Source of the DNA: a virus
Virus record (IMG/VR): IMGVR_UViG_3300046507_000337
Location: 1 to 33,472 of that record
Reading direction: 5' to 3' (one strand)
DNA: 33,472 bases
Shown here: piece by piece, positions 274-32,411 of the stretch
Position numbering within the stretch: position 1 is the stretch's first letter
Layout: every line of letters begins with the position of its first letter
Translations under genes and position numbers: made by a program
The notes under the pieces: generated by a model
What the model was told of the DNA's origin: nothing
Databases searched by the model: none
What the model saw: the letters and a program-made list of their open reading frames with translations, nothing else

Positions 274-651
274 ATGGAAACCAAGGAATGTCCGGTATGC
301 GGTAAGGGCAAGCCACTCAGTGATTTCAGCGGACGGCATCGAACATGCCGGGCTTGCCGGACCGCAGAGAAACGGGATGCCGACGCTAAGCGCACCGCCG
401 AGGATCCGCATTGGCGACGTGACCAGAAGATTGCAGCGCACGCCCGGAAGCTAGGCGTCACGGTCGATGAGTTCCTAGCGCTGCGACAACAGCCGTGCGG
501 AGTATGCGGCAAGGAAGGGGAGGTGTTGAGCCCGTATACCGGGAACGGGGAAACGCTCCTCGGCTGGATTTGCAAGAGCTGCAACCGTGGGCTAGGAATC
601 CTCGGCCACGATCCGGCGCGCCTCAAGCGAGCGTTGCACATGTGGAACTGA
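274..651 (+). CDS. Endonuclease VII-like protein lacking the catalytic His/Asp motif
   Basis: A 125-residue protein and the only + strand gene supported here. It has a CPVC...CRAC zinc pair at the N-terminus and a C-terminal half that follows the recombination endonuclease VII pattern: a helix (DEFLALRQQP), CGVCGKEG, then WICKSCNRGLGILGHDPARLKRAL. In the family the segment between the two zinc knuckles carries a DHDH-type metal-binding motif; here it reads LSPYTGNGET, with no His or Asp, so catalysis is doubtful. The ATG at 274 is chosen because it follows a strong -10 by the spacing of a leaderless transcript; an upstream TTG at 250 is possible but lies in the promoter. A palindrome copy overlaps the stop codon and separates this gene from the convergent tRNA cluster. 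Confidence 0.8.
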   Translation: METKECPVCGKGKPLSDFSGRHRTCRACRTAEKRDADAKRTAEDPHWRRDQKIAAHARKLGVTVDEFLALRQQPCGVCGKEGEVLSPYTGNGETLLGWICKSCNRGLGILGHDPARLKRALHMWN

Positions 652-670
652 CCTCCCAAATTTGGGAGGT
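651..670. repeat. Palindrome copy 1 (20-bp core)
   Basis: A perfect inverted repeat ACCTCCCAAA/TTTGGGAGGT that begins on the last base of the + strand gene and lies 6 bp past the 3' end of the - strand tRNA cluster. Here it is between convergent units, where a bidirectional terminator would be expected. There is no U-tract on either side. Confidence 0.95.
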
Positions 671-676
671 GCTAAG

Positions 677-750
677 TAGTCACTGAGGGATTCGAACCCA
701 TCACTGAACGGTGCCTAAGACCGTTGCCTCTACCGTTGGGCTAAGTGACC
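677..750 (-). tRNA. tRNA, probable anticodon UAG (Leu-like), imperfect T arm
   Basis: The - strand folds into a 7-bp acceptor (GGTCACT with AGTGACT, first pair G-U), a 3-bp D stem, a 5-bp anticodon stem ACGGT/ACCGT with loop CTTAGGC, and a T arm with TTCGAAT whose stem needs a bulged T. The anticodon reads UAG, but the long variable arm expected of tRNA-Leu is absent. CCA is not encoded. It is the last member of a - strand cluster ending at the palindrome. Existence as a tRNA is likely; identity and function are uncertain. Confidence 0.7.
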
Positions 751-752
751 AG

Positions 753-820
753 GAGCCCCGTATGGAGTCGAACCATCCTCCCCCGCTCTACGGGGTTGCT
801 CGCCATCGAGCTTGGGGGCC
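753..820 (-). tRNA. Degenerate tRNA-like gene
   Basis: The strand can be folded with acceptor GGCCCCC/CGGGGCT, D arm GCTC-GATGGC-GAGC, anticodon arm ACCCC-GTAGAGC-GGGGG (anticodon AGA) and T arm ATGG-TTCGACT-CCAT. Three stem-end pairs (7:66, 27:43 and 49:65) are mismatched and the variable loop is very short. It sits 2 bp from the next tRNA, as in a processed polycistronic precursor. It could be a decayed tRNA; a covariance-model search would decide. Confidence 0.4.
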
Positions 821-824
821 ACGG

Positions 825-897: not shown

Positions 898-901
898 TTG
901 T

Positions 902-956: not shown

Positions 957-1020
957 GTGAGGGAAGGGGCCTCAGACCGCCGCTTATGTTTGCGCGGGAT
1001 TCCCGCCCCTCACTGACCAT

Positions 1021-3136: not shown

Positions 3137-3150
3137 ACGGTGTGCTGCAA

Positions 3151-4950: not shown

Positions 4951-4972
4951 CACCTCCCAAATTTGGGAGGTG
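4951..4972. repeat. Palindrome copy 2
   Basis: A perfect 22-bp inverted repeat, 13 bp past the stop at 4986 and 239 bp before the next start. On the - strand it is followed by CTCTTTTTTGCATTTAAG; a possible promoter (TTGCAT, 16 bp, TAACAA) starts 8 bp downstream, looser than in the tight modules. The 240 bp to 4712 hold no supportable gene. Confidence 0.95.
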
Positions 4973-4985: not shown

Positions 4986-5483
4986 CTAGGCCACCCGTAC
5001 GAACCTGAACTTCCCGGTGCCTACCGCCTGCACTCCGGTCGGCGTCCATCCGGCCCTCGTCCACTTGCACAGGTTCGAGACTCGCCGAACCATGTTCCGC
5101 TTGCCCGGCACCTGCTCCTCACCGGCCCACAGCCAGTAGAACGAGGCGACCGGCTCGCCGTCCTCAAGGACGGTCACGGGCTCGTTGTAGGACGTCTGCT
5201 GTACAGCCTTCCAAGCATCCTCCTTCGTGGCGTACTCCGTTACGACAAGCTTTCCGTTGGTCGAGCGACCGATGGCCCGGCGACCTCCCGCAGCGTCGAT
5301 AGGGTCGTACGCGATCGTGTAGGTGGGCATCTTCGTGGCCTCTCCGTGGAATGCAACCCAGCACCGCGCGGCGCTGGTTGCCATCTCCGCAGTGTAGTAA
5401 GCGGGAGTGACGAACAGCACGGCGTCACCGGCGCTCACCCGCGCGGAGTGCTTGCCGTTTGTCTCGGTTGCCGTGATGTTCAT
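4986..5483 (-). CDS. Protein of unknown function (165 aa)
   Basis: The ATG at 5481-5483 has an excellent AAGGGGAG binding site. The protein reads MNITATETNGKHSARVSAGD, then a Tyr- and Gly-rich section (TPAYYTAEMATSAARCWVAF; YTIAYDPIDAAGGRRAIGRS) and a C-terminal half with EDGEPVASFYWLWAGEEQ and a basic end. It looks like a small beta-rich soluble protein. It is transcribed from its own palindrome-linked promoter (5522-5574) and followed by another palindrome. Function unknown. Confidence 0.8.
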   Translation of the reverse strand: MNITATETNGKHSARVSAGDAVLFVTPAYYTAEMATSAARCWVAFHGEATKMPTYTIAYDPIDAAGGRRAIGRSTNGKLVVTEYATKEDAWKAVQQTSYNEPVTVLEDGEPVASFYWLWAGEEQVPGKRNMVRRVSNLCKWTRAGWTPTGVQAVGTGKFRFVRVA

Positions 5484-5521: not shown

Positions 5522-5550
5522 ACGTTAGGGCATGGCGTAGCCACACGCAA
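5522..5550 (-). promoter_or_regulatory. Promoter next to palindrome copy 3
   Basis: On the - strand TTGCGT (5545-5550), 17 bp, TAACGT (5522-5527). The -35 starts 2 bp after the palindrome, and the predicted start lies about 30 bp before the ATG at 5483. Confidence 0.65.
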
Positions 5551-5552: not shown

Positions 5553-5574
5553 CACCTCCCAAATTTGGTAGGTG
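5553..5574. repeat. Palindrome copy 3 (one mismatch)
   Basis: The + strand right arm reads TTTGGTAGGTG, a single G-to-T change at one position. The same variant appears at 14621, 25828 and, in the other arm, 28347. The copy abuts the -35 of the promoter at 5522-5550 and follows the stop at 5593. Confidence 0.95.
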
Positions 5575-6136: not shown

Positions 6137-6166
6137 ATCTAAGCACGCTGCCACTCCCCCGCGCAA
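6137..6166 (-). promoter_or_regulatory. Promoter next to palindrome copy 4
   Basis: TTGCGC (6161-6166), 18 bp, TTAGAT (6137-6142) on the - strand, 2 bp from the palindrome. Its leader is about 35 nt before the ATG at 6093. Confidence 0.65.
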
Positions 6167-6168: not shown

Positions 6169-6190
6169 CACCTCCCAAATTTGGGAGGTG
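6169..6190. repeat. Palindrome copy 4
   Basis: A perfect 22-bp inverted repeat between the terminator at 6202-6228 and the promoter at 6137-6166. Being past the terminator, it belongs to the downstream promoter rather than to the upstream gene's end. Confidence 0.95.
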
Positions 6191-6448: not shown

Positions 6449-6478
6449 AGTAAAGCACGGTGCCGCGCCCCCATACAA
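6449..6478 (-). promoter_or_regulatory. Promoter next to palindrome copy 5
   Basis: TTGTAT (6473-6478), 18 bp, TTTACT (6449-6454) on the - strand. The -35 is 2 bp from the palindrome, and the predicted start is about 24 nt before the GTG at 6418. Confidence 0.65.
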
Positions 6479-6480: not shown

Positions 6481-6502
6481 CACCTCCCAAATTTGGGAGG
6501 TG
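6481..6502. repeat. Palindrome copy 5
   Basis: A perfect 22-bp inverted repeat placed between the upstream terminator (6512-6537) and the promoter at 6449-6478. Confidence 0.95.
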
Positions 6503-6835: not shown

Positions 6836-7093
6836 TCAAGACGAGATGGCCTTGCGTGCCTCGATCTTGCGCTGCATGCACGCCTTGAAACTCGCGTCCC
6901 GCTCCTCTTGCGGGATTTCCTGCACGCTACCGGCGATGAGGGAGAACAGTTGGACGACGTCGGTGTGACGGAACTTGAGAGTCTTGCCGATCCCGCCCAT
7001 GGTGGTGATGTCGATCTCAAACGTGTACGTGTCGCCGTCCTTGACGGCCCGGACGTCGTCGGCCCACTTGACGTTTTCCTGATGACGGATCAT
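6836..7093 (-). CDS. Small protein of unknown function (85 aa)
   Basis: GGGAGGGG precedes the ATG at 7091-7093. It opens MIRHQENVKWADDVRAVKDG, with a beta section (DTYTFEIDITTMGGIGKTLKFRHTD) and two helices (VVQLFSLIAGSVQEI; ERDASFKACMQRKIEAR). A mixed alpha/beta domain; I do not recognise it. Palindrome copy 6 lies 46 bp upstream of the start. Confidence 0.75.
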   Translation of the reverse strand: MIRHQENVKWADDVRAVKDGDTYTFEIDITTMGGIGKTLKFRHTDVVQLFSLIAGSVQEIPQEERDASFKACMQRKIEARKAISS

Positions 7094-7138: not shown

Positions 7139-7160
7139 CACCTCCCAAATTTGGGAGGTC
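7139..7160. repeat. Palindrome copy 6
   Basis: Inverted repeat with 20 perfectly symmetric bases; the outermost pair is broken (C at 7160). On the - strand GTGTAT lies at the -35 position 2 bp away, but no good -10 is at the expected distance, so the promoter is weak or atypical. Confidence 0.9.
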
Positions 7161-8269: not shown

Positions 8270-8968
8270 TCAGCCTCCGTAAGGTTCGGTCGGAATGTCT
8301 TGCACGCTTCCCGGGGCGAGTCGCCTCAGGTTGCCGAGGATGAGCCCGGCGAACTCTCGGATCTCAGCGTCAGCCGCTACGTGCCAACGCTTGCCGAGCA
8401 CATCGCGCCATGCACGCAGGTTGCCGGTAACGATCATGTCGACCGGGGCAGCGTTCGGCAGCACTGCGCGCGCCGCTTCCCTCGCAGCCTTACGGCTTAG
8501 CCCTCTCCCCCGCAGCGTCTCGACGTAGTCCTCATACGCCTTGACGGCACGGTCATACTCGCGCTCAAGGTGCTCAGCCATCCCGGGCACCTCGACGACG
8601 GCGGGAGGTATCACGGGCCGCGTAGCGCTGTAGTCGACGTATCGCTGAGACACGACCGAGAAACTCAAGTGCCGATGCCTCGTCAACTCCGTTAGGAGCG
8701 CCCGACTTACGCCCCGGACAAGGAACGTCGCAGACGCATGTTCCATGACGCTGAAATGCCCTTGAGCGATGATGTTCGCGAGGTAGTCAGGGTTAGCGGC
8801 CGTCGCCGCATTCTTCCGGCCGAAGGACTTGTAACAGATGCGCCCCGCAGCCTCCCCGAGCGCGTCAAGGTCGGTCGCTTGCTCCTCGCCCTCGAACACC
8901 TCGTACCCGTAGGCCCTACGCATCACGTACTCATTGACGAGCGTTGCAGCTAGCACATCGACGTGCAA
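8270..8968 (-). CDS. thyX: Flavin-dependent thymidylate synthase
   Basis: 232 residues. It makes dTMP from dUMP with methylene-tetrahydrofolate, FAD and NADPH. The family signature is clear: [14 protein letters not shown] at residues 97-110 (RHRxxSxxxxSxRY), preceded by a His/Glu stretch ([10 protein letters not shown]) that contacts FAD. Length is normal for ThyX. The start is TTG at 8966-8968, preceded by AGGGGAGAG; no ATG fits better. Palindrome copy 7 lies 22 bp upstream, too close to the start for the usual downstream promoter. The three genes after it (to 7271) are packed head to tail and read as one operon. Confidence 0.95.
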
Positions 8969-8990: not shown

Positions 8991-9012
8991 CACCTCCCAA
9001 ATTTGGGAGGTG
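8991..9012. repeat. Palindrome copy 7, extended dyad
   Basis: A perfect 22-bp palindrome, with flanking GGAAG/CTTCC extending the symmetry to 32 bp (8986-9017). It lies between the stop at 9024 and the thyX TTG, in a 55-bp gap with no room for a promoter downstream of it. Confidence 0.95.
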
Positions 9013-9023: not shown

Positions 9024-9590
9024 TCAGTACCAGTGCGGCGAGCGCGAAAGCCAGGCAGCGTAAGCCTTGGCAGGTGACCCGTAGTTCCGGGCTATGTAGT
9101 CGAGCATCCAAGTGAGTTGCCCGCCGATCGGCGTACCGACCCCGTTCGGCAACTTGCTACAGGGCAGCGCTTGAGGTAGCCCGCACGCCCCGGACGAGGG
9201 GTTGACGGCGCGGGAGTTCCATCCCGCCTCCCCCATTTCCAGCGCGTTGAACGCCGACCACTGTCCGCCCCATCCACGCTGCGCAAGCATTGCCTTGGCT
9301 AGCGCCTTGGCTGCAATGGGCCGCACGTCCAGCGGTCGGGAGGTGCTCCTCGTCGCGCGTGGCGTTGCCCGCTTGGCAGGCTTCGGCGTGACCGTCGGTC
9401 GGGCCTTGCGGTGGACCCTAGGGCGAGCCTTGGGAGTTGCCGTGACGGTAGCCGTAACGGTCACTGTGGGGGTCGGTACGGGCTTAGGATCATCGGCCGC
9501 AGCACTCACCCCGATGCCGACTCCCGCGACCGCTGTAAGGGCGACGAGGCCCGTTGTCAGTCCGATGGGGACGAGGTTCCATGTCCTCAC
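9024..9590 (-). CDS. Secreted lytic transglycosylase-like protein
   Basis: 188 residues: a signal peptide or N-terminal anchor ([26 protein letters not shown]), a Thr/Pro/Lys-rich linker of about 60 residues, then a C-terminal domain of about 90 residues ([58 protein letters not shown]) matching the lysozyme-like fold of soluble transglycosylases, with the conserved Glu after ALE/GEAGW. It should cleave or bind cell-wall glycan outside the membrane. The GTG overlaps the stop of the gene before (GTGA). It is not in the lysis cassette but between replication genes and thyX, so a role in lysogeny, exclusion or host-wall modification should be considered. Confidence 0.8.
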
Positions 9591-11134: not shown

Positions 11135-11242
11135 CTAGCGGGAGTAAATGCCGAGGGACTGAAACAGGAGTGTCAACACGAACACGACCGTGCCTAGGCC
11201 CGTGAACCACACCCAATGGGCCACCCACCACGGGTCACGCAT
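11135..11242 (-). CDS. Small membrane protein (35 aa)
   Basis: The ATG at 11240-11242 overlaps the end of the sigma factor gene by 8 bp. The protein MRDPWWVAHWVWFTGLGTVV FVLTLLFQSLGIYSR has one long hydrophobic segment (about residues 10-31) with an N-terminal Trp-rich interface and Arg at the C-terminus. It is shorter than usual annotation cut-offs. A membrane-anchored partner or toxin-like peptide is possible; no function is inferred. Confidence 0.65.
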   Translation of the reverse strand: MRDPWWVAHWVWFTGLGTVVFVLTLLFQSLGIYSR

Positions 11243-12038
11243 TGAGGAGCGCCTCACCCTTGTTGCGGAGCGTCTCCAGCGCTTGCGCCCGGGTGTTGCC
11301 GACCGTGCTCCGCGTGATCCCCAGGTACGCGGCAATCTCGTTGTCGTCCTCAAAGAACGGCACGGGGTCAATGCCGTACGTGGCCTTGAGAATGAACCTG
11401 CGCCGCTCAGAGGTGAGCGCGAGGAGCGCGTGAGCGAGATCCTTGTTCCTCTGACGCTGCCCGGCGGCGATGTCGGAAGCCTCGACGAGGTCCTCAGGCA
11501 CCCCGTAGCCGTACGGGTCGGCGATGAGGTCCCCCAGGGTCGCCGCTCCCCCGTCGGTGTCCTCAGCGGGCATATCGAGGCTCGCAGCGCCCTCCCAAGC
11601 GAGGCGGGTAGCGCGGGCAAGCTCCGGGCTCAAACGGCGCTTCTCGCCGGACACAGTGCACAGACGCTCAGCGGCTCGCACGTCGCCCTCAGCGATGCTC
11701 AGGCAGCGCGTGAACGTCTTCATTGCCTCGTGCCCGACCCCGGGGCGAGTGACTCGGCGCATCTCGTCGTCCAGCGCGCCGGATATCGAGCGGTAGAGGT
11801 AGGTGGTGAAGACGGCACCGTTGCGGCCCTCATAGTCCCGTACGGCCTCCCACACGGTCAGCCGGGCGTGCTGCTCCATGTCCTCGACGAGGTCAAGGCG
11901 GGAAGCCTTGCGGCAAGCGTCGTACGAGAGTTTCTTAACCATGCCCTCGGTGCCGTCGATGATCGTGCGGCAAGCCGTCGCGTCGTTGTTCTTCGCGTTG
12001 ATGACGTCGTCGGCGGTGATCGTGGGGTAGCTCGACAT
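11235..12038 (-). CDS. Phage-encoded sigma factor, sigma-70-like
   Basis: 267 residues. A region 2-like helix bundle (residues about 40-96: SRLDLVEDMEQHARLTVWEA, VFTTYLYRSISGALDDEMRR) and a C-terminal region 4 helix-turn-helix (about 205-260: LLALTSERRRFILKATYGID, NEIAAYLGITRSTVGNTRAQ) are plain. The 100-residue middle is poorly conserved. AAGGA precedes the ATG at 12036-12038. It would direct host RNA polymerase to phage promoters, perhaps those of the late or palindrome-linked units. Its 5' leader contains a GAGA hairpin and a 370-bp gene-free stretch with long inverted repeats, so its own expression is probably controlled. Confidence 0.85.
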   Translation of the reverse strand: MSSYPTITADDVINAKNNDATACRTIIDGTEGMVKKLSYDACRKASRLDLVEDMEQHARLTVWEAVRDYEGRNGAVFTTYLYRSISGALDDEMRRVTRPGVGHEAMKTFTRCLSIAEGDVRAAERLCTVSGEKRRLSPELARATRLAWEGAASLDMPAEDTDGGAATLGDLIADPYGYGVPEDLVEASDIAAGQRQRNKDLAHALLALTSERRRFILKATYGIDPVPFFEDDNEIAAYLGITRSTVGNTRAQALETLRNKGEALLNA

Positions 12039-12435: not shown

Positions 12436-12723
12436 CTACGCGGAGGCCCATCGAATGTGACCCACATCACCTCCCAAATTTGGGAGGTGCCCCCTCAGCC
12501 ACTCCATAGGGTCACGGTCTGACTTGCTTTGGTTACACGCCGTGCAACTTGGCCAGCAATTGCCGAGGGTGTCCTCTCCCCCACGGGCCAGCGGCACGAA
12601 ATGATCAACCTGCGTCCATGGCGCCCCGCAGTAGATGCACGCCCATGCGTCCGCATCTGCCCACATTGCGTACAGTTCGGGACGTGAGGGGGTCACGCGC
12701 TCGCGCGGTCGCCGGTAGAACAC
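12436..12723 (-). CDS. HNH endonuclease whose frame runs through a palindrome copy
   Basis: 95 residues from GTG at 12721-12723, preceded by GAGGGGGTCAC. The HNH core is intact: CIYCG (zinc), VDHFVPLARGGED, then NCWPSCTACNQSKSDRDP. The start lies 18 bp after the DNA polymerase stop. The frame stays open across the whole palindrome at 12468-12489, which it translates as HLPNLGGD, and stops at 12436; the normal HNH end would be just before it (EWL). Either the palindrome was inserted into the gene's end or the gene recruited it. Its role could be DNA nicking or homing. Confidence 0.8.
   Translation of the reverse strand: MFYRRPRERVTPSRPELYAMWADADAWACIYCGAPWTQVDHFVPLARGGEDTLGNCWPSCTACNQSKSDRDPMEWLRGHLPNLGGDVGHIRWASA
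12455..12467. promoter_or_regulatory. Small palindrome ATGTG-n3-CACAT beside palindrome copy 8
   Basis: A perfect 5-bp dyad separated by three bases touches the edge of palindrome copy 8. It may be a binding site for a dimeric regulator, or coincidence. Confidence 0.3.
12468..12489. repeat. Palindrome copy 8 (within the HNH coding end)
   Basis: A perfect 22-bp inverted repeat and the only copy that lies wholly inside a coding frame. It is followed by the gene-free leader region of the sigma factor. Confidence 0.95.
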
Positions 12724-12740
12724 GTGACCCCCTCGGCTGC

Positions 12741-14620: not shown

Positions 14621-14642
14621 CACCTCCCAAATTTGGTAGGTG
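14621..14642. repeat. Palindrome copy 9 (one mismatch, extended dyad)
   Basis: The right arm carries the GGTAGG variant. Flanking GGGAG/CTCCC extends the stem to 32 bp (14616-14647). It lies 19 bp after the primase stop and 32 bp before the polymerase ATG, so no promoter fits behind it; here it may act as an RNA hairpin between cotranscribed genes. Confidence 0.95.
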
Positions 14643-14661: not shown

Positions 14662-17103
14662 CTACTTACCGAGGATCCCGGGGCCACTTACCGGGGTCGG
14701 CGCGTTGGCGATGCGCACCCCGACGAGGGCGATACCTTTCATGGTCTTTTTGCGGAACGCGCCGCGCTCTTCCATGGCGGCATAGAACGTGCGACGGGTC
14801 CACACCTCGCGCTGTTGCAGCCCCTCGGCCTCACACCAGTCCCGGTAAGCGTTGTACGCCTCGTCACCGTTCAGCGTCGCCTCAGGAACCCGCTCAAGGG
14901 TTCCCGGGAAGAATCCGGCGAGAGCATCGCTGGTTTCCTTGTATTCCTGCACGGCGCTCTTGATTACGTCCGGATCCTGTAGCCCGTCGGCAAACCACTC
15001 GACCGCACCTCGTACGGCCCATGCGGCGATGCCCTCAGACTCAGCCAGTAGCTTTGCGTCAAGGGCATGGTCCCGCTCATGGGGCGCAAACCAGCGCTTG
15101 AACGGGATCATCTTGACGCGTCGCCACAGACCCTCGTCTTGACCCCGGAAACGAGGCTTGTGGTTGGTCGCGAGCATGAGGAGAAAGGACGGCTTGAACT
15201 CAAAGAACTCTTGCCGAAGGAACCGAGCGCTGATCATGTCCTTACCGGTGACCCGCTTGAGGATTGCCTCGCTCATCGGCTTGCCGCTTTCACCCTCGGA
15301 AGCCATGACGAGGCGAGCACCTCGCAGCGCCGCAATGTCGTTGGGGATACCGCCCGACGACTTTTCCTCGAACGTGGCAAAGCCCGTGGTCTTACTGATC
15401 GTGCGGAACACAGCGGTGAGGGTGTCAGTGAGGACACTCTTGCCGTTGGCACCCTTCCCCCACAGGACACAGAAAGCTTGTTCCGTGACGTGGCCGGTGA
15501 TGCCGTAGCCGACGAGTCGGCGCATGTAGTCGGTGAGTTCGGGATTCTCGGGGAAGATCTCAGACAGGAACGATTCCCAACGGGCGCACGTCGCATCCGC
15601 GCGGTAGTCGATGTCTAGGGCGTACGTGAGCATGTCTTCCTTGGCGTGTGGCGCGAGCGCGCCCGTGCGTAGGTCGACCGTTCCATTGCGGAAACTCAGC
15701 AGGTCGGGGCGAGCGTCGAACGCCGACGCGTCGACATGCACCGTGGGCACCGAGCGCAGCTCAGTCATGAGGGCATCAATGCGAGTCGTCATGGTGAACC
15801 CGCGTGCCTTTTGCGTCTCCCCCGCGAGCACGAGGGCAGCGCCCATGCGATGTATTTCCTGCCTGATCTTGACCTCAGACCGCTCCCATGTCCGGCCGTT
15901 CCACACGTAGTAGCCCAGCCCGGGGGCGTACTTGATACGGCCGTCCGACCATGCGACGAGGGCGTGAGCGTTCATCGCGTCAGACTCGCCGTATCGGTTG
16001 ATGAGACCAGCGAGAATGCGAGCCGCTTCCGTACCCTGGTCCCGGCTCACTACGTCCGCGCCGGTCAAGTCAGTGAGTTCAGCGGATACCGCCTCTGCCG
16101 CAGCTTCGGCCGAATCCTGCACGGGTCCCGCCGACTTGACGGCACGGTGCAGCGCGAGAGGGAAGGAATGAGGGTCTCGCTCACGCCACTTAGTGAGGTC
16201 ATCCTTGGGGGTCGGAATCGGCAACGAGTAGACCTTTAGGCCATGCTCGGCGAGACCCTTGGCAAGCATGCGGTTGAATCGCTGCCCGGCCTCGTCGTTG
16301 TCGCCGCACGCGATTACCTGCGAGCCCTTGAGCCCCTCGGCAAGCTCGGCGATGAGTTCCGGGCTACTGGCGAGACTGGCACCTCGCACGGCAACGGCGT
16401 TGTACCCCACAGAAACGGCTGTGAGGCCATCTCCGGGCCCCTCAGACACGAGGGTGACTCCATACCCACCCTCACCCTTGAAAACGCCGTACGGGGCCCA
16501 CCGATGCCCGTCAGGGTTGCGGAGCGACACCCACCGTCCCGGGCAGTCGCCGGAAAGGTCGCGCCCCTGTAGTCCGCGTATGACTCCGTCGAAACCGACG
16601 AGGGGGACCGTGAGACGCGGGTACGAGGTGAACGCACGCGACCGGTACGGGAACCGATGCTTACCGGCGGAGTACTCCCCAGGGTCCACCCCTAGGAACA
16701 GTTCGCATGCCGTGTCGGCGTCCAGCCCGAACCGGTCGTCGACGTACGCCCGTGCCTTTGCCGACCATGTGTTGTCGTAGTCGAGGAGCGCATGCGACGT
16801 TTCCTCAACGTACATGCGCAGTGCGGCAGTTGGACCGGGGCCGACGAGGACCGGCTTTTCCTTGGCCACCGTGAGCCCCTCCCCCGTCACGTCAAACATG
16901 TCCGGCCACGTCAGGTTCGCAGCCTTGACCACGTCATCGGACTTACAGCCCGAACGGCAGGTGAGGCGCACCTTGTTGTCATCGCCGCGCCATATGCGGA
17001 GCGACGGCCGAGAATCAGCGTGCGCCGGACACTGCGCGAGATACCCGCCGTCCGCTTCCTCCGATACCTGAGTGAAGCGTGCGAGCACATCAGAGAACTG
17101 CAT
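14662..17103 (-). CDS. Primase-helicase (D5/P4 type)
   Basis: 813 residues. The N-terminus has a zinc site (C25, H28, C49, C53) as in CHC2-type primases, then a TOPRIM-like domain (LVSEGPGDGL, 218-226; ACGDNDEAG, 265-273). The C-terminal half is a superfamily 3 helicase with a Walker A loop GKGANGKS (549-556), in the D5 N-terminal context. It would synthesise primers and unwind DNA for the polymerase encoded next. The ATG at 17101-17103 follows GGAAAGG. The GAGA hairpin is in its leader. The order Cas4-like nuclease, RNA ligase, directionality factor, primase, polymerase forms one operon. Confidence 0.95.
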   Translation of the reverse strand: MQFSDVLARFTQVSEEADGGYLAQCPAHADSRPSLRIWRGDDNKVRLTCRSGCKSDDVVKAANLTWPDMFDVTGEGLTVAKEKPVLVGPGPTAALRMYVEETSHALLDYDNTWSAKARAYVDDRFGLDADTACELFLGVDPGEYSAGKHRFPYRSRAFTSYPRLTVPLVGFDGVIRGLQGRDLSGDCPGRWVSLRNPDGHRWAPYGVFKGEGGYGVTLVSEGPGDGLTAVSVGYNAVAVRGASLASSPELIAELAEGLKGSQVIACGDNDEAGQRFNRMLAKGLAEHGLKVYSLPIPTPKDDLTKWRERDPHSFPLALHRAVKSAGPVQDSAEAAAEAVSAELTDLTGADVVSRDQGTEAARILAGLINRYGESDAMNAHALVAWSDGRIKYAPGLGYYVWNGRTWERSEVKIRQEIHRMGAALVLAGETQKARGFTMTTRIDALMTELRSVPTVHVDASAFDARPDLLSFRNGTVDLRTGALAPHAKEDMLTYALDIDYRADATCARWESFLSEIFPENPELTDYMRRLVGYGITGHVTEQAFCVLWGKGANGKSVLTDTLTAVFRTISKTTGFATFEEKSSGGIPNDIAALRGARLVMASEGESGKPMSEAILKRVTGKDMISARFLRQEFFEFKPSFLLMLATNHKPRFRGQDEGLWRRVKMIPFKRWFAPHERDHALDAKLLAESEGIAAWAVRGAVEWFADGLQDPDVIKSAVQEYKETSDALAGFFPGTLERVPEATLNGDEAYNAYRDWCEAEGLQQREVWTRRTFYAAMEERGAFRKKTMKGIALVGVRIANAPTPVSGPGILGK

Positions 17104-18868: not shown

Positions 18869-18922
18869 ACTGTGTGACCTCACTCTGAATGTCTGTGATT
18901 GGTGGGAGCGAGCAAGGGGGTG

Positions 18923-18942
18923 ACCTCCCAAATTTGGGAGGT
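18923..18942. repeat. Palindrome copy 10 (20-bp core)
   Basis: A perfect 20-bp inverted repeat; the outermost pair is not conserved on the left (TGACC). It lies 54 bp before the gp3-like ATG and 35 bp after the GAGA hairpin. TTGCTC follows at 7 bp on the - strand but the -10 is poor. Confidence 0.95.
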
Positions 18943-18976
18943 GCTTACCGGCCCTTGCTCGCCCCGTATTTACATC

Positions 18977-19538: not shown

Positions 19539-20378
19539 TTACTTCCCCCGCCGCTGAGTGCCAGTCACGAACGACGTCCCGCCCGCAGCAAGCGGCTTTC
19601 CGATGACGGTCTTACTCGTCTCCCGGTCCCAATCGAACGTTGCCCGCAGGTGGAGGAACTGCGCGAACACCTCGTCATTGACGAGGACGGGCTTGAATGC
19701 CCACTGGTCGGCAGTGATGTGCAGCACCGCAGCGCCGTCAAACTCCGGCATCGGCTCACTCGACCCGTCCGGCGCAACGATGCGGTCGGCGTAGGCGTAT
19801 GCCGCCATCTGTAGGGCCACATCCGGGTAGGTGGCCTTAGAGGTCTTCCAGTCGGCCATAAGGAGCGCGGGAGTGCCCGAACGGTCCGGGGTCGGTTTGT
19901 TGTCCTCGTCGAGCCACACGCGGAGGATGGCGTCAAAGGATCCGGCGTACTTGTGAGTGTCGGACCATGCCACATCCTCAGCGCGGACTAGCTCGGGGTT
20001 GACGACCTCAAGGAACTCGGCGAAATGCCGGACGTACGGCGCGAGGTCGGGGTGAACGCGCCCGATGAGTTCGCCACGGATCATCCGCTCAAACAGATCG
20101 TGAGCGGCCGAGCCAACATCAGCGCGCAGCTTGGTATATCGGCGGGCTGCATTCTTGAGCCAGTCGACGGCCCCCTGTCGGTCGCGCTCCGCCATCTGCC
20201 CGACGAACGGCAGCGAGTCAACGGCGAGTTCGGCGACCATCTTGGCATTCCAGAAAGCCAGGAACGGCTTAGGGAGCATGCCGATTACCGAGGTGACCCC
20301 GGGGACCTTCTCGGCCGTTTCGTGGTCGACGTAAAAGCGGGACCCTCCCCGCATGATGGTTCGGACTGTACCGGCCAT
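19539..20378 (-). CDS. Cas4/RecB-like PD-(D/E)XK exonuclease
   Basis: 279 residues with the RecB-family set: GSAAHDLFER (His93), AGSFDAIL (Asp149), LMADWKTSK (Asp176, Lys178) and QMAAYAYA (Gln190, Tyr194). The four Cys residues that hold the iron-sulfur cluster in true Cas4 are not present, so it is a phage single-domain nuclease, probably working on DNA ends in replication or recombination. The ATG at 20376-20378 follows AAGGGG. It is the first gene of the long replication operon, behind the 91-bp element B, a GAGA hairpin and a tandem operator. Confidence 0.9.
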   Translation of the reverse strand: MAGTVRTIMRGGSRFYVDHETAEKVPGVTSVIGMLPKPFLAFWNAKMVAELAVDSLPFVGQMAERDRQGAVDWLKNAARRYTKLRADVGSAAHDLFERMIRGELIGRVHPDLAPYVRHFAEFLEVVNPELVRAEDVAWSDTHKYAGSFDAILRVWLDEDNKPTPDRSGTPALLMADWKTSKATYPDVALQMAAYAYADRIVAPDGSSEPMPEFDGAAVLHITADQWAFKPVLVNDEVFAQFLHLRATFDWDRETSKTVIGKPLAAGGTSFVTGTQRRGK

Positions 20379-20416: not shown

Positions 20417-20434
20417 TGAGAGGGGTTCTCTAGC
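20417..20434 (-). repeat. GAGA hairpin in the replication operon leader
   Basis: GCTAGAGAACCCCTCTCA on the - strand, 2 bp downstream of the 91-bp element B and 38 bp before the first start codon. No gene ends here. Confidence 0.85.
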
Positions 20435-21768: not shown

Positions 21769-22998
21769 TTAGATCAGAGCCTTGCGGAGTTCCTTGAGCT
21801 TGTCCTCAAGGTCCTTGATCTCCCCCTCAAGCTTGCTCTTCTCGTCCTCGTCCTCAATGGTTTCGAGGTAGGAAACATCGAACTTGTTGATGAGCTTAGC
21901 GAGCCCCGCGACGAAAACCTCAGCCTTCTTTTCCGGCGCCGCATCCTCGACCTGCTGACCCGTGGTGCGGATGGCCTCACCGTTCCCACCCTCAGGCTCG
22001 GCGACCGCTCCGCCTCCCGCCTCAATGGCGAGCTTGGCCTCAGCGGCGAGCTTGCCCTTTTCCTGCTGACGCTCCTTCTCGCGCTCAAGGGCAGACTTGG
22101 GCGACAGCTTGTAGAACTCAAACACCGCGTCGGACGGCTTAGCGTCGGGGTGCGCTTCCTTGACCTTGCCGAAGTGCTCGGCGTACTCCTCAGGGCTCGC
22201 GTCCAGCGCCCGGACGTAGCTCACGAGGACGTCAGACATCTGGTACTGCGTGGCCTTGACCATGGCGGCGACGGCCGCACGTACCTCGTCGTCGGTGCCG
22301 TCGAGCTTGCTGCCCGCAGCCTTGTACATGTCGCTAGCGGCGAGCTTGGCAGCCTGCGTCTGCGCCTTGAGGTCGGGCAACCCGCTCTTGTTCTTGAGCC
22401 TCAGCCTCATGTCGAGGATGACCTCAGCGACGCTACGCGCAGTCTGGCTTGCCTTCGTGTGCGCGGCGACACCCTCACGGATGCGCTCCGCGCCCATGTC
22501 AACAAGCTCAGTGAGACCCTCGGCCGTCTTGTAGTCGACCGTTTCGAGGTTGACGACCTCAGCCTTGGGGGCGGGCTCAGCCTCAGCCTTGGGGGCGGGT
22601 TCGCCCTTGAGGGCCCCGGTGAGGTTGGCTCGCAGCGCGTTGCGCTCCCCCGCCGGAAGCGAGGCAATCACGGTGTCTGCTTCCTTGCGGAGCGCCTCAG
22701 CGCCCTCAGCGTCCTCCCCCGCCTCAGCAAGCGCCCGGACAGCCTCAGTCAGCTTGGCGACGATCTCACGCTTCTCAGCGGTCGTCGGCTTAGCAGTCTT
22801 CTCGGCGGTCACAGTCTCAGTCACAGTCACAGTCTCCTCGTTCTTGGTACGGACAGCCTCGCACGCCTTGCAAACTGCGGCGGGCTCACCCTCGATGGCC
22901 TTACCCTTGCTCGCGTCCTTGCCGCACAGAGTCTTGGACATGTCCTCGGCCAGAAGGTGTCCGGTCTTGCCAGCGCCGATCTGAACGTAGGTGCTCAT
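21769..22998 (-). CDS. Acidic, Ala/Glu/Lys-rich coiled-coil protein (409 aa)
   Basis: Starts MSTYVQIGAGKTGHLLAEDM, with two Cys positions (TLCGKD; VCKACE) near residues 25-45 that may bind zinc, then a Thr/Val-rich linker and several long Ala/Glu/Lys helices (about 70-240), and a C-terminal coiled coil (DEDEKSKLEGEIKDLEDKLK). The composition is that of a scaffold-like or abundant filament-like protein, but the capsid genes are outside the window. GCAAGGGGAGG precedes the ATG at 22996-22998. Two palindrome-linked promoters in tandem suggest high, tightly controlled expression. No family is recognised. Confidence 0.85.
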   Translation of the reverse strand: MSTYVQIGAGKTGHLLAEDMSKTLCGKDASKGKAIEGEPAAVCKACEAVRTKNEETVTVTETVTAEKTAKPTTAEKREIVAKLTEAVRALAEAGEDAEGAEALRKEADTVIASLPAGERNALRANLTGALKGEPAPKAEAEPAPKAEVVNLETVDYKTAEGLTELVDMGAERIREGVAAHTKASQTARSVAEVILDMRLRLKNKSGLPDLKAQTQAAKLAASDMYKAAGSKLDGTDDEVRAAVAAMVKATQYQMSDVLVSYVRALDASPEEYAEHFGKVKEAHPDAKPSDAVFEFYKLSPKSALEREKERQQEKGKLAAEAKLAIEAGGGAVAEPEGGNGEAIRTTGQQVEDAAPEKKAEVFVAGLAKLINKFDVSYLETIEDEDEKSKLEGEIKDLEDKLKELRKALI

Positions 22999-23044: not shown

Positions 23045-23073
23045 ACTGTAGTGGTTGCGCCGTTGGTGTGCAA
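23045..23073 (-). promoter_or_regulatory. Proximal promoter of the 409-aa gene
   Basis: TTGCAC (23068-23073), 17 bp, TACAGT (23045-23050) on the - strand, 2 bp from palindrome copy 11. The start lies about 40 nt before the ATG. Confidence 0.7.
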
Positions 23074-23075: not shown

Positions 23076-23097
23076 CACCTCCCAAATTTGGGAGGTC
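23076..23097. repeat. Palindrome copy 11
   Basis: A 22-bp inverted repeat with a C at the last position. It touches the proximal promoter and lies 83 bp from copy 12. Confidence 0.95.
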
Positions 23098-23127: not shown

Positions 23128-23157
23128 AGACTAGCGGACCGGGCGAGAGGCTCGCAA
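23128..23157 (-). promoter_or_regulatory. Distal promoter of the 409-aa gene
   Basis: TTGCGA (23152-23157), 18 bp, TAGTCT (23128-23133) on the - strand, 1 bp from palindrome copy 12. Confidence 0.6.
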
Positions 23158-23158: not shown

Positions 23159-23180
23159 CACCTCCCAAATTTGGGAGGTC
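23159..23180. repeat. Palindrome copy 12
   Basis: A 22-bp inverted repeat with the outermost pair broken (C at the end). Together with copy 11 it makes a tandem operator/promoter array between the kinase terminator and the 409-aa gene. Confidence 0.95.
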
Positions 23181-23247: not shown

Positions 23248-23805
23248 TCACGCACGGGTGACGAGGGCGTCAGCCTTGAGCCGTAGCTCATTGATCATGC
23301 TGTCGTTGTAGACGATCTGATGAGGCACCCACGTGTTCAGCGCCGTTTCACTCTCGTGCGCCATTTGGGCTATGCCGGGCCGTACGACCCGCACCGTTTG
23401 GAAACCGACGCCGTCCAGCGTGAGGGCCTCGTCGAGATATCGGCAGTCGGTCACGACTACCGGCTTTCCGGCGGTTTCCCAACGGGCAATCTTGCCCATG
23501 GCGACGCTAAGCCAGAATCCCGGAATCTCGTCCCGTACGGTCTGTCCCACGTTTTGAAGAACCCGGCGCACTTCCGGATAGCGGTCCTTTGCGTATTCCC
23601 ATCCGGTGTCCGCGACGAGGCGGGAAAGCCGTACAGGCGGCATATCCGGGAATGTGGCTATCAGCGGGTCAATGCGGAGTGCCATTTCCTTGAGCGGATC
23701 GGCGAATGCGACGCGCACGTACCCGTGACGCTCGACGAGGCGTGACGCAATGGTGTCTTTCCCACTACGCGCACGCCCCATGAGTGCGATGTTCGGCAAA
23801 ACCAT
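23248..23805 (-). CDS. Deoxynucleoside monophosphate kinase
   Basis: 185 residues with a P-loop, GRARSGKDT (10-18), and the phage dNMP kinase pattern (FADPLKEMALRI; VVVTDCRYLDEA, the DxRY element). It would raise dNMPs to diphosphates for phage DNA synthesis, completing the set with ThyX and dCMP deaminase. The ATG at 23803-23805 follows GGAGG by 8 bases. It is preceded by a GAGA-like hairpin after the small membrane protein gene and ends in a strong terminator. Confidence 0.88.
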   Translation of the reverse strand: MVLPNIALMGRARSGKDTIASRLVERHGYVRVAFADPLKEMALRIDPLIATFPDMPPVRLSRLVADTGWEYAKDRYPEVRRVLQNVGQTVRDEIPGFWLSVAMGKIARWETAGKPVVVTDCRYLDEALTLDGVGFQTVRVVRPGIAQMAHESETALNTWVPHQIVYNDSMINELRLKADALVTRA

Positions 23806-25827: not shown

Positions 25828-25849
25828 CACCTCCCAAATTTGGTAGGTG
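25828..25849. repeat. Palindrome copy 13 (one mismatch, extended dyad)
   Basis: GGTAGG variant, with GGGAG/CTCCC extending the stem to 32 bp (25823-25854). It begins 9 bp after the stop of the large minor tail gene, inside the late operon. Confidence 0.95.
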
Positions 25850-28346: not shown

Positions 28347-28368
28347 CACCTACCAAATTTGGGAGGTG
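28347..28368. repeat. Palindrome copy 14 (mismatch in other arm, extended dyad)
   Basis: The left arm reads CACCTACCAAA, the same variant as other copies but flipped. AGAGGGAG/CTCCCTCT flanks extend the dyad to about 38 bp (28339-28376). It lies between the tape measure stop and the next start. Confidence 0.95.
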
Positions 28369-31300: not shown

Positions 31301-31450
31301 CCCACCGAGCGCACCCATCCCCCCACCTAGACGACTGGACCGGCGCTCTAGGTTCTCGGCATCCCCGGCAACAGCCCTCAGCGCCCGTTGGGCACTAGCG
31401 GCGTTACCGACAATGACGACCCGCAGCGTCCGGGATCCACCCTCAGCCAT
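28379..31450 (-). CDS. Tape measure protein (1023 aa)
   Basis: MAEGGSRTLRVVIVGNAASA opens a very long helical protein. An early domain (MENAQVGFTTMLGSAKKATD, LQLTENGVRGWQYLADYLHK) is the standard TP901-type tape measure start; the middle contains hydrophobic repeats (AINFLGPILAILWKFLGPIV) and several Trp-rich segments that enter the host membrane. The late portion includes HIPGPIRHAMGIKSPSRVMA and LGIHSPSRVFRTQG, which repeat the GIKSPS motif. By the family's usual 1.5 A per residue the tail would be about 150 nm. The ATG at 31448-31450 overlaps the frameshift product's stop (ATGGCTGA). Confidence 0.97.
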   Translation of the reverse strand: MAEGGSRTLRVVIVGNAASAQRALRAVAGDAENLERRSSRLGGGMGALGGRLMQFGKTAALGFGVAAGAAVIWGTKTAVQMENAQVGFTTMLGSAKKATDFLQKLQQFAIVTPFSSQDVIKYSQSMMAMGFKAKEVIPTLQDAGDAVAALGGEPERLQRVLLALGQIKAKGRVMGQEMLQLTENGVRGWQYLADYLHKSVPETMKLGEKGLISADTAMKALRKGMHKDFGGMMKEQANSVSGMWSTLKDTAQIALGKMMTAFFPLIKQVLPKITTGVQGLASVMVPAFQHAGSVIGPLADKIRGVFGGTVMPVMRRVSDYVSGTLMPKMRENIAQLMPVIMRLVGIFRADVLPALMMVGRAVIPVFKQIVAVIQGVIIPAVISLISTIMPQISRFAGFIKGTVAPLLVWAFKQAQPVITQFGQVFATVAQAIGAAINFLGPILAILWKFLGPIVIDTLKGLWSGIIGVISGTLTIIQGIANVFIGIFTGNWSKAWLGVKQILVGVWNFIVGAIKVWIYGSLLSAVRGGVLRIATFWRAGWSGIRSVFTGIISFIRGGVSTWSSAISGIIGRGMSLIRGLWSRGWSGLRTTVSSMTSRIATVARSIPGKITTAFRSLPGKLVQIGKDIIAGLVRGIKNSLGTVLGAAKSIVDHIPGPIRHAMGIKSPSRVMADIGKWIVRGLVVGMLGGSKSVEKTSNKLHDLVTKAFRAGGISKARASSLQKYISKENRKLMTLAKDREKVAAKLKSAQTKLADLQKAKSDMASSVSSKAREFGAFTNAFSTDDGADNSPSAILSRLRGRLNAIVKFRQNLATLHKRGFGNGIINEIAQAGPEQGGPMAAALLNSSGADVKAINSVYAQIGKQSDALGAKVAGDYYNSGIHAAQGLVNGLKSKESALTKAIENLAKKMVKTLKKELGIHSPSRVFRTQGVWVGRGLALGVDDTAEDVQAAVNRLAATRPANRLARSAVEAASVSGGRAASQPIVHVHVAGNVTAEQNLAKAIAGAVRDEIVRTGKRNGGRTGL

Positions 31451-31909
31451 ACTGTGACTCCCTAGCCGATAGTTCCTCGCTCATGTACGAGGCGAATGCG
31501 CGATACTCAGCGGCCGTGAGTCGCCGCACCTCGTCGGGAGTCATGCGGTAGAAACGGCAGAATGCGGCTCGCTCCCTTAGCCGTTCTGCCCGTCGTCGTT
31601 TCCCGACTCATCATCGACCCCCACTAGCTCAAGCTCGGACACTCGAACGCGCCGAGCGTCATCGAGGGTGAACTCAGGCTTTTCGATGCGCTGCGTGATC
31701 CAGATAAGCGCCTTAAGCGCCTTAGTGGTGATCTGCGTCTGCATCTCCGGACGGCCCTTTTCGTCAAGGACCTTCTTGCCGTCGGGGCCGATAACAGGCT
31801 TGGGCTGTAGCGCGTCATACAGCGCCACGCCGACAGTGTCCTCAAAGTCCTCAAGGTCGCCGATAGTCAGAACATCGGGGTCAATGCGAAGTGCAACGGT
31901 CTCAGCCAT
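31443..31909 (-). CDS. Tail assembly chaperone frameshift fusion (G-T, about 155 aa)
   Basis: Slippery heptamer GGGAAAC (31598-31604) lies in frame as G GGA AAC, six codons before the stop of the upstream chaperone. A -1 shift joins residues 1-104 of the first chaperone to a second frame reading RRRAERLRERAAFCRFYRMT PDEVRRLTAAEYRAFASYMS and ending at 31443. This is the conserved G/GT arrangement, made in small amounts to load the tape measure. The second frame has no start of its own. The rest of the slippery context (pseudoknot) was not modelled. Confidence 0.85.
31577..31909 (-). CDS. Tail assembly chaperone (short form, G-like)
   Basis: 110 residues starting MAETVALRIDPDVLTIGDLE, with an acidic C-terminus (GVDDESGNDDGQNG). 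The length, position between tail tube and tape measure, and the slippery site near its end identify it. The ATG at 31907-31909 overlaps the upstream stop by the 8-bp ATGGCTGA. GAGG lies 9 bases upstream. Confidence 0.92.
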   Translation of the reverse strand: MAETVALRIDPDVLTIGDLEDFEDTVGVALYDALQPKPVIGPDGKKVLDEKGRPEMQTQITTKALKALIWITQRIEKPEFTLDDARRVRVSELELVGVDDESGNDDGQNG

Positions 31910-32369
31910 TTGGAAATGCCTCTCCTGCGATGCGGTCAATAGCCCGCATGTATTCGTTGATTAGCTCCGGCCCCTTCTCACGAATGGAAGGGTGGAGGAA
32001 ATAGCCGGGTCCGCCGTCCCAGCTCATGAACTGATTGCCGCGCCATGCGCGGAAGCCTCGCGCGATCTTCCCCGTGTGGGTGCGCTTGCGTGCGCCGAAC
32101 TCAGCGCCGAGCGCATAAGGGGCTCGCGCGGATCCGAGACGGACAGCGGCGTAATTCGCTGTCTTTGTAGCTCTCAGGCTTCGCGCTGCCGCAGCTTGCT
32201 GCCGAGACATGCCCATAGCCTTGGACTTGGCAGCATCGGTGAGCTTGTCGGCAACGTCGTAGTTGGCCTGCTTGACCTCGTCGCGTAGACGTCCATCACC
32301 TATCGCGGCGAGTGTGCGGGAGAACTGCGCCAGACCCTCAATGTTGGCTCCATAGCCCTGCACAGGCAT
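31902..32369 (-). CDS. HK97 gp10-like head-tail/tail completion protein (155 aa)
   Basis: MPVQGYGANIEGLAQFSRTL, then a helical section with KAMGMSRQQAAAARSLR and a C-terminus GYFLHPSIREKGPELINEYM resembling the gp10-like family (minor capsid/tail completion). Such genes usually lie before the tail tube; here it lies after it. GGAGG precedes the ATG at 32367-32369. A tail-terminator role is possible. It is linked to the chaperone by overlap. Confidence 0.7.
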   Translation of the reverse strand: MPVQGYGANIEGLAQFSRTLAAIGDGRLRDEVKQANYDVADKLTDAAKSKAMGMSRQQAAAARSLRATKTANYAAVRLGSARAPYALGAEFGARKRTHTGKIARGFRAWRGNQFMSWDGGPGYFLHPSIREKGPELINEYMRAIDRIAGEAFPNG

Positions 32370-32389
32370 GACGCAGTCCTCCCCCTAAG

Positions 32390-32411
32390 CACCTCCCAAA
32401 TTTGGGAGGTG
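32390..32411. repeat. Palindrome copy 15 (slightly extended dyad)
   Basis: A perfect 22-bp palindrome with AG/CT flanks, starting 4 bp after the tail tube stop codon. It lies in the late operon, 20 bp before the next ATG. Confidence 0.95.

Follow-up and report, generated by a model that had tools for sequence, protein, structure and literature searches.

A recurrent 22-bp palindrome and a c-type repressor gene in a fragment of a phiC31-like Streptomyces phage

Which protein reads a 22-bp palindrome that recurs from one end of a phage genome fragment to the other, and what would binding achieve? The question is raised by a window of 33,472 nt (the whole stretch of viral DNA analysed here), which is part of the genome of a Streptomyces phage resembling phiC31 and holds 15 copies of CACCTCCCAAATTTGGGAGGTG. 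Six copies are perfect (4951, 6169, 6481, 8991, 12468, and 32390) and nine have one change, which is an outermost C/G swap at five sites and falls on half position 6 at four. No stretch of the window matches the 22-bp word at two to six mismatches, and the next-best match has seven. The half-site is made up of the outer bases CACCTCC and the inner tetramer CAAA, and the centre of the palindrome reads AAATTT.

The original prediction had listed 15 copies within one or two changes of one sequence, and both statements hold. Thirteen of its coordinates are right, and the copies that it placed at 651 and 18923 start one base earlier (650 and 18922). Its description of a half-site and an exact inverse is true of the six perfect copies and not of the other nine. 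Its placement of 14 of the 15 copies outside genes or in one-base overlap needs amendment, as 13 are outside genes, one overlaps a gene end by two bases, and one is intragenic. The gene calls used for this placement are our own and incomplete, leaving ~19% of the window outside called genes. Chance recurrence had been excluded correctly: with up to four mismatches allowed in the 18-bp core, about 0.1 copies are expected versus 15 found (Poisson ~1e-27), and no near-palindrome recurred more than seven times in five block shuffles of the window. The prediction had also staked itself on copies being present elsewhere, and 17 are carried by a contig of 41,410 bases whose compared pieces are 96-98% identical to the window. 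The copies in the window are as follows.

Copy 1, 650..671, GACC...GGTG with one change; 4 nt after tRNA-Leu (676-750, minus strand) and overlapping the final 2 bases of the HNH gene 250-651 (plus strand)
Copy 2, 4951..4972, exact; the stop of 4986-5483 (minus strand) is 13 nt before, and on the minus strand TCTTTTTT follows, giving a terminator-like hairpin with a T-run
Copy 3, 5553..5574, one change; adjoins -35-like TTGCGT (5545-5550, minus strand), with -10-like TAACGT (5522-5527, minus strand)
Copy 4, 6169..6190, exact; adjoins TTGCGC (6161-6166, minus strand), N18, TTAGAT (6137-6142, minus strand), boxes read by eye; a terminator-like hairpin lies immediately before
Copy 5, 6481..6502, exact; adjoins TTGTAT (6473-6478, minus strand), N18, TTTACT (6449-6454, minus strand), boxes read by eye
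Copy 6, 7139..7160, one change; gene 6836-7092 (minus strand) is 46 nt downstream
Copy 7, 8991..9012, exact; dyad longer by 5 bp on each side; junction of 9024-9590 (minus strand) and ThyX 8270-8968 (minus strand)
Copy 8, 12468..12489, exact; the sole intragenic copy, near the end of the small HNH gene 12436-12740 (minus strand), between DNA polymerase and sigma factor
Copy 9, 14621..14642, one change; dyad longer by 5 bp on each side; primase/DNA polymerase junction
Copy 10, 18922..18943, one change; junction of an RNA ligase-like gene and the recombination directionality factor
Copy 11, 23076..23097, one change; 77 nt 5' of the repressor gene c; TTGCAC (23068-23073, minus strand), N17, TACAGT (23045-23050, minus strand)
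Copy 12, 23159..23180, one change; 160 nt 5' of c; TTGCGA (23152-23157, minus strand), N18, TAGTCT (23128-23133, minus strand)
Copy 13, 25828..25849, one change; dyad longer by 5 bp on each side; junction of two late genes, stop codon 9 nt before
Copy 14, 28347..28368, one change; dyad longer by 8 bp on each side; tape measure stop codon 10 nt before
Copy 15, 32390..32411, exact; the stop of the minor tail gene 32416-33387 (minus strand) is 4 nt before

The window itself encodes a candidate for the protein that binds these sites, within a recognizable gene neighbourhood.

21769..22998, minus strand, phiC31 c-type immunity repressor, 409 aa with PF25746 at residues 70-402, the proposed binder
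23248..23805, minus strand, dNMP kinase, marking the phiC31-type position of c
19539..20378, minus strand, exonuclease resembling gp1 of phiC31/phiBT1, the other flank of the c region

The c homologue matches PF25746 with an E value of 1.4e-57 (196 bits, cut-off 27) and is 30% identical to phiC31 c over 201 aa (BLASTP E 9e-20 in a single comparison). Its gene lies between the dNMP kinase and the exonuclease as in phiC31 and phiBT1, 3' of the virion and lysis genes and in the same direction. Copies 11 and 12 are directly 5' of c and both adjoin their -35-like boxes.

The palindromes are very probably operators for the c repressor that the phage itself encodes, which would block promoters and, probably, elongation. 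We infer binding, dimerisation, repression, and roadblocking from the sequence. A c dimer would bind each 22-bp site, dimeric binding being proposed because the site has two-fold symmetry. Where a site lies at an early promoter, as at the two tandem ones 5' of c, it adjoins the putative -35 box, so bound repressor would block RNA polymerase and c would control itself as well. At sites just after stop codons within operons, often in longer hairpins, the repressor would probably halt elongating polymerase in the manner of a stoperator; with elongation stopped at dispersed sites, the prophage may be kept silent along its full length. Within the half-site, the outer bases would act as a shared frame and the inner four (CAAA here) as the phage-specific part.

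The association of c with such sets was examined in 64 viral loci, each covering no less than 7.3 kb of sequence 5' of primase (80 of the 175 in the primase scan had been kept), a set being called positive when its Poisson score was below 1e-7. This score was used because simple counting of palindromes gave noisy results when genomes were rich in GC (Dubu, phiSASD1, Nesbitt, AbbeyMikolon). A palindrome set is present in 52 of the 56 loci with c versus none of the 8 without (Fisher 1e-7). At least three of the positives are doubtful: the motif of L092 is low in information, that of L118 apparently belongs to another repeat family, and the consensus of L089 is poor. If three doubtful sets are scored as negative, the figures become 49/56 versus 0/8 (p 1.5e-6), and with loci of at least 95% identical primase additionally collapsed they become 43/50 versus 0/8 (p 3e-6). 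The 64 loci are not independent: the eight without c have primases 75-88% identical to each other and so may be one lineage, and PF25746 was not found in these eight contigs without a set, which may be fragments. Four of the 56 c-bearing loci have no set in the stretch scanned, and wider stretches around c hold six copies in L193 and three weakly scored copies in L172. A site falls within -700 to +900 of the start of the c frame in 46 of the 50 c-bearing loci passing 1e-8. Additionally, seven c-bearing prophage regions in Streptomyces genomes were scanned; only three pass 1e-7, another three show TCAC-type copies, 4-5 each and weakly scored, and the last shows none.

Across the family the half-sites have a loose outer frame, with the consensus CACCTAC, and inner four bases that are phage-specific. 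One spelling is used within each phage and different spellings between phages, as expected for one cognate DNA-binding protein. These results support the two functional readings in the original prediction: a repressor operator or stoperator set is indicated by the c homologue, the two sites upstream of it, and the co-occurrence of c and sets in relatives, and control by one dimeric protein by the spelling pattern together with the symmetry of the site. The spellings also bear on whether the sites are bound by a regulator from the host, which would link the phage to host physiology. Four Streptomyces genomes do contain the word once each (one exact copy, three with two mismatches), but the scan of 84,980 species genomes gave only 15 matching stretches with one site each, most of them outside Actinomycetota by title. 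The three Streptomyces copies that were inspected lie within longer plain hairpins, and related phages have other spellings, each in many copies. We rejected a host regulon, which is very improbable given scarce single host copies in plain hairpins and phages that differ in spelling.

If the palindromes are operators of c, some should adjoin promoters. Promoter-like and hairpin contexts were analysed in 54 loci (L118 and L089 were left out). At +10 to +14 from the operator centres, 31 of 57 TTG triplets have TAnnnT spaced 17-19 away (15-20 allowed) versus 12 of 305 control TTGs, and these operator/promoter-like pairs occur in 17 of the 54 loci. Only three window sites pass the strict rule, and two more were read by eye. 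A role of the repeats in DNA replication, packaging, or recombination, in the manner of iterons and apart from transcription, would accord with one palindrome in many copies per phage genome. It is extremely improbable, however, as the copies are spread across early and late genes at gene junctions, many family sites adjoin promoter-like boxes, two window sites precede the repressor gene, and the eight loci that have primase without c show no set.

The position of many sites at gene ends suggests another function, in which the palindromes are primarily RNA hairpins for termination or mRNA-end protection and no protein binds the DNA. Seven window sites lie within 20 nt after a stop codon, and a T-run follows site 4951. 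Six stretches of the window fold well, five unmatched by any shuffle and the sixth matched by 4 of 200. In the family the arms are extended by at least 5 bp at 57 of 501 sites versus 1.9% with swapped flanks, and a T-run follows 9 of these 57 versus 15 of the other 444. The T-run is nevertheless missing at 48 of the 57, and the AAATTT loop and the exact letters of the stem are conserved although a hairpin does not need them. Departures from the phage consensus affect one arm in 767 cases and both arms matchingly in 59 (9 and 0 in the window), and none of the 31 sites directly 5' of promoter-like boxes has extended arms. A purely RNA-based function is very unlikely, and it was demoted to a secondary role because the core changes are mostly one-armed and no set was found in the eight loci without c.

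If c reads the palindromes, operator spelling should follow the repressor. It does so (Mantel rho 0.25, p below 1/5000; with primase distance taken into account 0.155, p 0.001), and primase distance tracks spelling about equally (partial 0.169, p 0.0014). For this comparison 13 loci were excluded because their stretch lacked c or their motif was poor (L062, L084, L087, L092, L101, L113, L124, L127, L134, L136, L150, L155, and L156) and a further 12 redundant rows were removed (68 to 56), with the doubtful L118 and L089 still inside. A consensus was withheld from loci whose best motif scored above -6, and the Poisson score still yields low-information motifs for L062, L087, L092, and L156.

A single repressor residue gives a lead on how the inner bases may be read. 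In 67 of 69 pairs, base 8 of the half-site is predicted by residue 252 (window numbering), which lies in the modelled helix 236-267; T8 occurs with Asn, and the association is not significant after allowing for descent. Three columns exceed the permutation limit of 0.75, namely residue 252 (1.35), residue 245 (0.93), and a gappy column without a window residue (0.79). T8 changes just 4-6 times on the trees, which comprise 53 loci (L059 was also left out). Independent pairs number 3-4 with and 0 against the association on the primase tree (p 0.125-0.25, not significant), 0-1 with and 0 against on the c-domain tree (not significant), and 1 with, 0 against, and 2 without difference on an enlarged c-domain tree. 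The exceptions are L131 and L141 (L211 is the same contig as L141). Once the column had been identified, 16 further rows were added and all of them fit (10 with both T and Asn, 6 with neither), these rows having been picked by eye as clear and non-redundant from 48 rows and 7 prophages and including L162 and L163, which score just -5.9 and -6.7.

Structure comparison of the full-length c model with Foldseek and VIA-align gave no clear match, the hits being mostly helical-bundle look-alikes. The c domain alone (pLDDT 96) reached at best E 1.2 and Z 4.1 against the PDB, and no PDB sequence matched the c-family profile at E up to 0.1. Against the c proteins predicted for three Streptomyces phages, the domain reached TM 0.82-0.86. 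The missing structural match among these models does not show that the c fold is new. It is possible, and we propose it tentatively, that c represents a distinct DNA-binding class in which an all-helical domain without a clear solved match follows a readable code, with CACCTAC as the frame and the inner tetramer partly read by residue 252 in the long helix; many soil Streptomyces phages may have rewritten all of their operators in concert while keeping many of the junctions.

The analysis places a Streptomyces phage recognized from sequence among phages with phiC31-type immunity and yields 54 non-redundant repressor/operator pairs, the 56 of the first set less two doubtful ones. It makes testable how a whole dispersed operator set is rewritten when immunity specificity changes, as well as how DNA is recognized by c, the domain of which is modelled with confidence and lacks a clear relative among solved structures. 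It could also allow homoimmunity among phiC31-like phages to be predicted from sequence.

The dispersed operators of phiC31 are called conserved inverted repeats (CIRs), and the system described here is of this known phiC31 c/dispersed-operator kind; what is new is the differently spelled member in the window. Both phages have a PF25746 repressor encoded at the corresponding place, a set of 15-17 palindromes that are almost identical and nearly all intergenic, and sites before c. The phiC31 sites occupy junctions also used in the window: tape measure/next gene, kinase/c, primase/polymerase, polymerase/gp12, and after dCMP deaminase. The counterpart of phiC31 gp12 is a sigma factor in phiBT1. 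The recurrent palindrome of phiC31 is ACCTACTCACGTGAGTAGGT (16 copies) and that of the window ACCTCCCAAATTTGGGAGGT; the outer bases ACCT..AGGT are common to both, whereas the centre is CAAATTTG in the window and TCACGTGA in phiC31, and half position 6 is C in the window and A in phiC31. A second phiC31 repeat, GGTTGCCGACTCCCTT, with a Poisson score of -22, was regarded as belonging to a separate family and left out. The repressor is 409 aa long in the window versus 683 in phiC31, and phiC31 has a site within c (19772) where the window c has none. A portion of PMC4557955 describes 18-30 dispersed repressor binding sites in the phiC31 and L5 genomes and three in-frame isoforms of the phiC31 repressor. 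No paper on the window motif or the phiC31 operator sequence was among the matches listed, and the word "repressor" is absent from PMC5311408 and PMC3836970.

Among other named Streptomyces phages, Rowa, TG1, Heather, AbbeyMikolon, and Shaeky each have a c homologue and one dominant palindrome in 10-23 copies, with spellings that differ from that of the window. The Rowa half-site, CACCTCCGAAA, is the nearest among the named phages, and TG1 also has a site before ThyX, as in the window. Dubu has c and no clear palindrome set; in phiSASD1 PF25746 was not found and the set is also absent. Dispersed intergenic repressor sites are also reported for the Streptomyces phage R4 (PMC10276819, in part), a feature shared with the window by description rather than by comparison of sequences.

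The Cluster A phages (L5, Bxb1) have many dispersed repressor sites, up to 30, with a motif that varies by immunity group, according to a section of PMC6550527, and the system in the window would work in a similar way. The Cluster A site, however, is asymmetric and is recognized by a monomeric repressor that has two DNA-binding domains, as outlined in PMC9283540, whereas the site in the window is a 22-bp palindrome and its repressor belongs to the phiC31 c family. The sites after stop codons inside operons would fit an elongation roadblock of the Cluster A type.

The window (33,472 bases) has 15 copies of the 22-bp palindrome CACCTCCCAAATTTGGGAGGTG, 6 of them exact and 9 carrying one change, and the nearest matches beyond these differ at seven positions. 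The original prediction of 15 near-identical palindromes recurring more often than chance allows was borne out, as only ~0.1 copies of the 18-bp core with up to 4 mismatches are expected in the window, and the most that any near-palindrome recurred in five block shuffles was 7 times. Thirteen of the predicted coordinates were right and two were shifted by one base. By our own gene calls, which are incomplete, 13 copies are intergenic, one lies over the end of an HNH gene and one (12468) falls within a small HNH gene; the earlier count of 14 copies outside genes or overlapping by one base thus stands for 13, with the overlap being two bases. Copies were also expected in relatives, and a 41,410-base contig with 96-98% identity to the window in the pieces compared has 17. 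Two features are needed for what follows:

21769-22998, minus strand, c-type repressor gene (409 aa; Pfam PF25746, Streptomyces phage repressor protein c, E 1.4e-57)
12436-12740, small HNH gene between the DNA polymerase and sigma factor genes, with operator 12468 inside its 3' end

Among named phages, the window is closest to phiC31-like ones of Streptomyces. Its primase (14662-17103, minus strand) has 65-70% identity to those of Rowa, Heather, AbbeyMikolon, TG1, phiBT1 and phiC31, and the gene order (integrase, early genes, sigma factor, DNA polymerase, primase, recombination directionality factor, exonuclease, repressor, dNMP kinase, endolysin, tail) is the phiC31/phiBT1 order in reverse. 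The repressor gene is flanked by those for the dNMP kinase and exonuclease, like c in phiC31 and phiBT1, and its product shares 30% identity with phiC31 c across 201 residues. A tblastn search with the window repressor returned 28 phage records, every one a Streptomyces phage or Lomovskayavirus. The window therefore very probably holds a new member of the phiC31 c repressor/dispersed operator system, with the palindromes as its proposed operators. The type of reading first put forward, repressor operators or stoperators, is judged right, with the c homologue as the putative binder.

AlphaFold2 (69 sequences) gave a confident, nearly all-helical model of repressor residues 150-325 with a mean pLDDT of 96.2. 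This domain matches the predicted c proteins of Vash, Nesbitt and Shawty with TM scores of 0.82-0.86. The best PDB matches reached only E 1.2 (Foldseek) and Z 4.1 (VIA-align), and a c-family profile found no match among PDB sequences; such weak matches do not prove that the modelled fold is new. In the poorly modelled N-terminus, His14, Cys25, Cys43 and Cys46 form a possible zinc-binding pattern, and several other c proteins have similar Cys-x-x-Cys pairs.

Sixteen reference phages were scanned de novo for recurrent palindromes, and 14 of them gave a clear leading set. In phiC31, whose operators are named CIR, the set was ACCTACTCACGTGAGTAGGT with 16 copies; this phage also carries a second, unlike repeat family. 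The scan gave no set in phiSASD1, which is without c, and no clear set in Dubu, which has c. Viral loci around the primase were then considered (the best 80 of 175), of which 64 show at least 7.3 kb upstream of the primase. A set, defined by a score below 1e-7, was present in 52 of the 56 loci with c versus 0 of the 8 without (Fisher 1e-7). Of the positive loci at least three are doubtful (L092, L118, L089), and some of the loci are nearly copies of one another; scoring the three as negative gives 49/56 versus 0/8 (p 1.5e-6), and collapsing primases at least 95% identical as well gives 43/50 versus 0/8 (p 3e-6). The loci without a detected c (L099, L119, L122, L126, L130, L133, L135, L145) have primases that share 75-88% identity with each other and so may be one lineage. 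Neither their contigs, which may be fragments, nor phiSASD1 gave a match to PF25746. Viewing contigs around c gave copies for two of the four set-less c loci (6 in L193; 3, weakly scored, in L172). PF25746 matches occur in 7 of 392 Streptomyces genomes. Sets below 1e-7 are present in three of these prophage regions, 4-5 TCAC-type copies with weak scores in another three, and no copies in the last.

The outer half-site is a loose shared frame and the inner four bases vary between phages. Among 56 non-redundant half-sites, 17 start exactly CACCTAC; CCTAC occupies positions 3-7 in 29, TAC positions 5-7 in 39 and C position 7 in 50. The inner bases are TCAC (20), GAAA (9), CAAA (5), TCTT (4), GGAT (4), TCAA (2), CGAA (2) and singles, with TGAA and GGAA added by later loci. 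The window core CAAA is common to L079 (primase 85%), L120, L128 and L139, and in the last three the outer half-site is CACCTAC or CACGTAC. The smaller number of relatives after collapsing, the passing of only three of the seven prophage regions and the looseness of the outer frame slightly temper the reading of the palindromes as operators of the phage's own c, which stays very probable. They also temper the more novel reading, a distinct class of DNA-binding protein with a partly readable immunity code, which is given somewhat less than even odds. Operator spelling follows repressor distance (Mantel rho 0.25, p < 1/5000; 0.155, p 0.001 given primase) and primase distance about equally well (partial 0.169, p 0.0014); descent thus accounts for some of the correlation with the repressor.

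An association between residue 252 and half-site base 8 is a lead to specificity. Among 69 repressor/operator pairs, Asn occupies the residue-252 column in 40 of 40 repressors whose operators have T at position 8 (T8) and in only 2 of 29 others (L131, L141). This column predicts T8 with 97% accuracy, versus 84% for the next-best. In the column scan the second-highest score went to residue 245, seven residues before 252 and likewise in helix 236-267. The window has Tyr252 and C8. All sixteen rows that were added once the column was known agree with it, but they were hand-chosen. The trees show only 4-6 changes of T8, so the association is not significant once descent is allowed for.

Operators occupy the same junctions in the window and phiC31: tape measure/next gene, kinase/c, primase/polymerase, polymerase/gp12 (the counterpart of which in phiBT1 is a sigma factor) and after dCMP deaminase. 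TG1 has one before ThyX too, as in the window. The central bases at shared junctions are unlike the window's. Across 500 sites in 54 loci, a TTG starts +10 to +14 from the operator centre in 57, and TAnnnT follows at a spacing of 17-19 in 31 of these 57 versus 12 of 305 control TTGs. Those 31 sites, from 17 of the 54 loci, lie directly next to the -35 box of a predicted sigma-70-type promoter. The strict pattern is found at window sites 5553, 23076 and 23159 and a looser one, by eye, at 6169 and 6481. Two palindromes lie 77 and 160 nt upstream of the c start, and the two predicted promoters with operators before c suggest that c autoregulates.

Seven window operators lie within 20 nt after an upstream stop codon. 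The palindrome is extended by at least 5 bp in 57 of 501 family sites versus 1.9% with swapped flanks, and in none of the 31 promoter sites; a T-run lies downstream of 9 of the 57 extended sites versus 15 of 444 others. At 34781 in phiC31, where a T-run follows, and at 25758 and 32643 in TG1, a longer hairpin has the operator at its apex, so one stretch may serve as both DNA operator and RNA terminator. Core departures hit one arm in 767 cases and both arms matchingly in 59 across the family (9 and 0 in the window), which argues for selection on the DNA site and not on RNA pairing. One site would likely have two uses, occluding promoters and, between genes, acting as a roadblock or terminator partner.

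A host regulon for the word is not indicated. Across 84,980 species genomes scanned, the word turned up as 15 single sites, four of them in Streptomyces (one exact, three with two mismatches), and the three Streptomyces copies inspected lie in longer plain hairpins (L034 3348-3369, L035 3209-3230, L036 7362-7383). The S. albus copy (L036) directly follows a stretch that by eye resembles a tRNA 3' end, in which ARAGORN called no tRNA; window operator 650 likewise follows a tRNA-Leu at a distance of 4 nt.

A second intergenic repeat, CTAGAGACGCCCTCTCA-like, occurs on the window minus strand near 20432, 18992, 17151, 12092, 11130 and 10738. All 6 copies coincide with stop codons or lie close to them; four come a short way ahead of the exonuclease, recombination directionality factor, primase and sigma genes, and the repeat is absent from the + strand of five reference phages searched. 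The 14-copy repeat GGTTGCCGACTCCCTT of phiC31 precedes gp1, gp3, primase and gp12, junctions matching those of the CTAGAGACGCCCTCTCA-like repeat. Two similar promoter-like blocks on the window minus strand (~20525-20440, upstream of the exonuclease, and ~1145-1050, between integrase and tRNAs) have in common ATGACG, TAGAT, ATAGA, AGTC and TTAAG.GAAAC; a + strand search of nine reference phages did not find the last of these. The phage sigma factor (11235-12038) may recognise the two blocks.

Dispersed repressor binding sites number 18-30 in the phiC31 and L5 genomes, and phiC31 produces three repressor isoforms, according to PMC4557955. A repressor-stoperator system is described for R4 (PMC10276819). 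In Cluster A mycobacteriophages, stoperator motifs vary by immunity group (PMC6550527) and an asymmetric site is bound by a monomer (PMC9283540). The window system would act like those of phiC31, L5/Cluster A and R4; the homology of its repressor, the position of the repressor gene and the palindromic form of its sites group it with phiC31.
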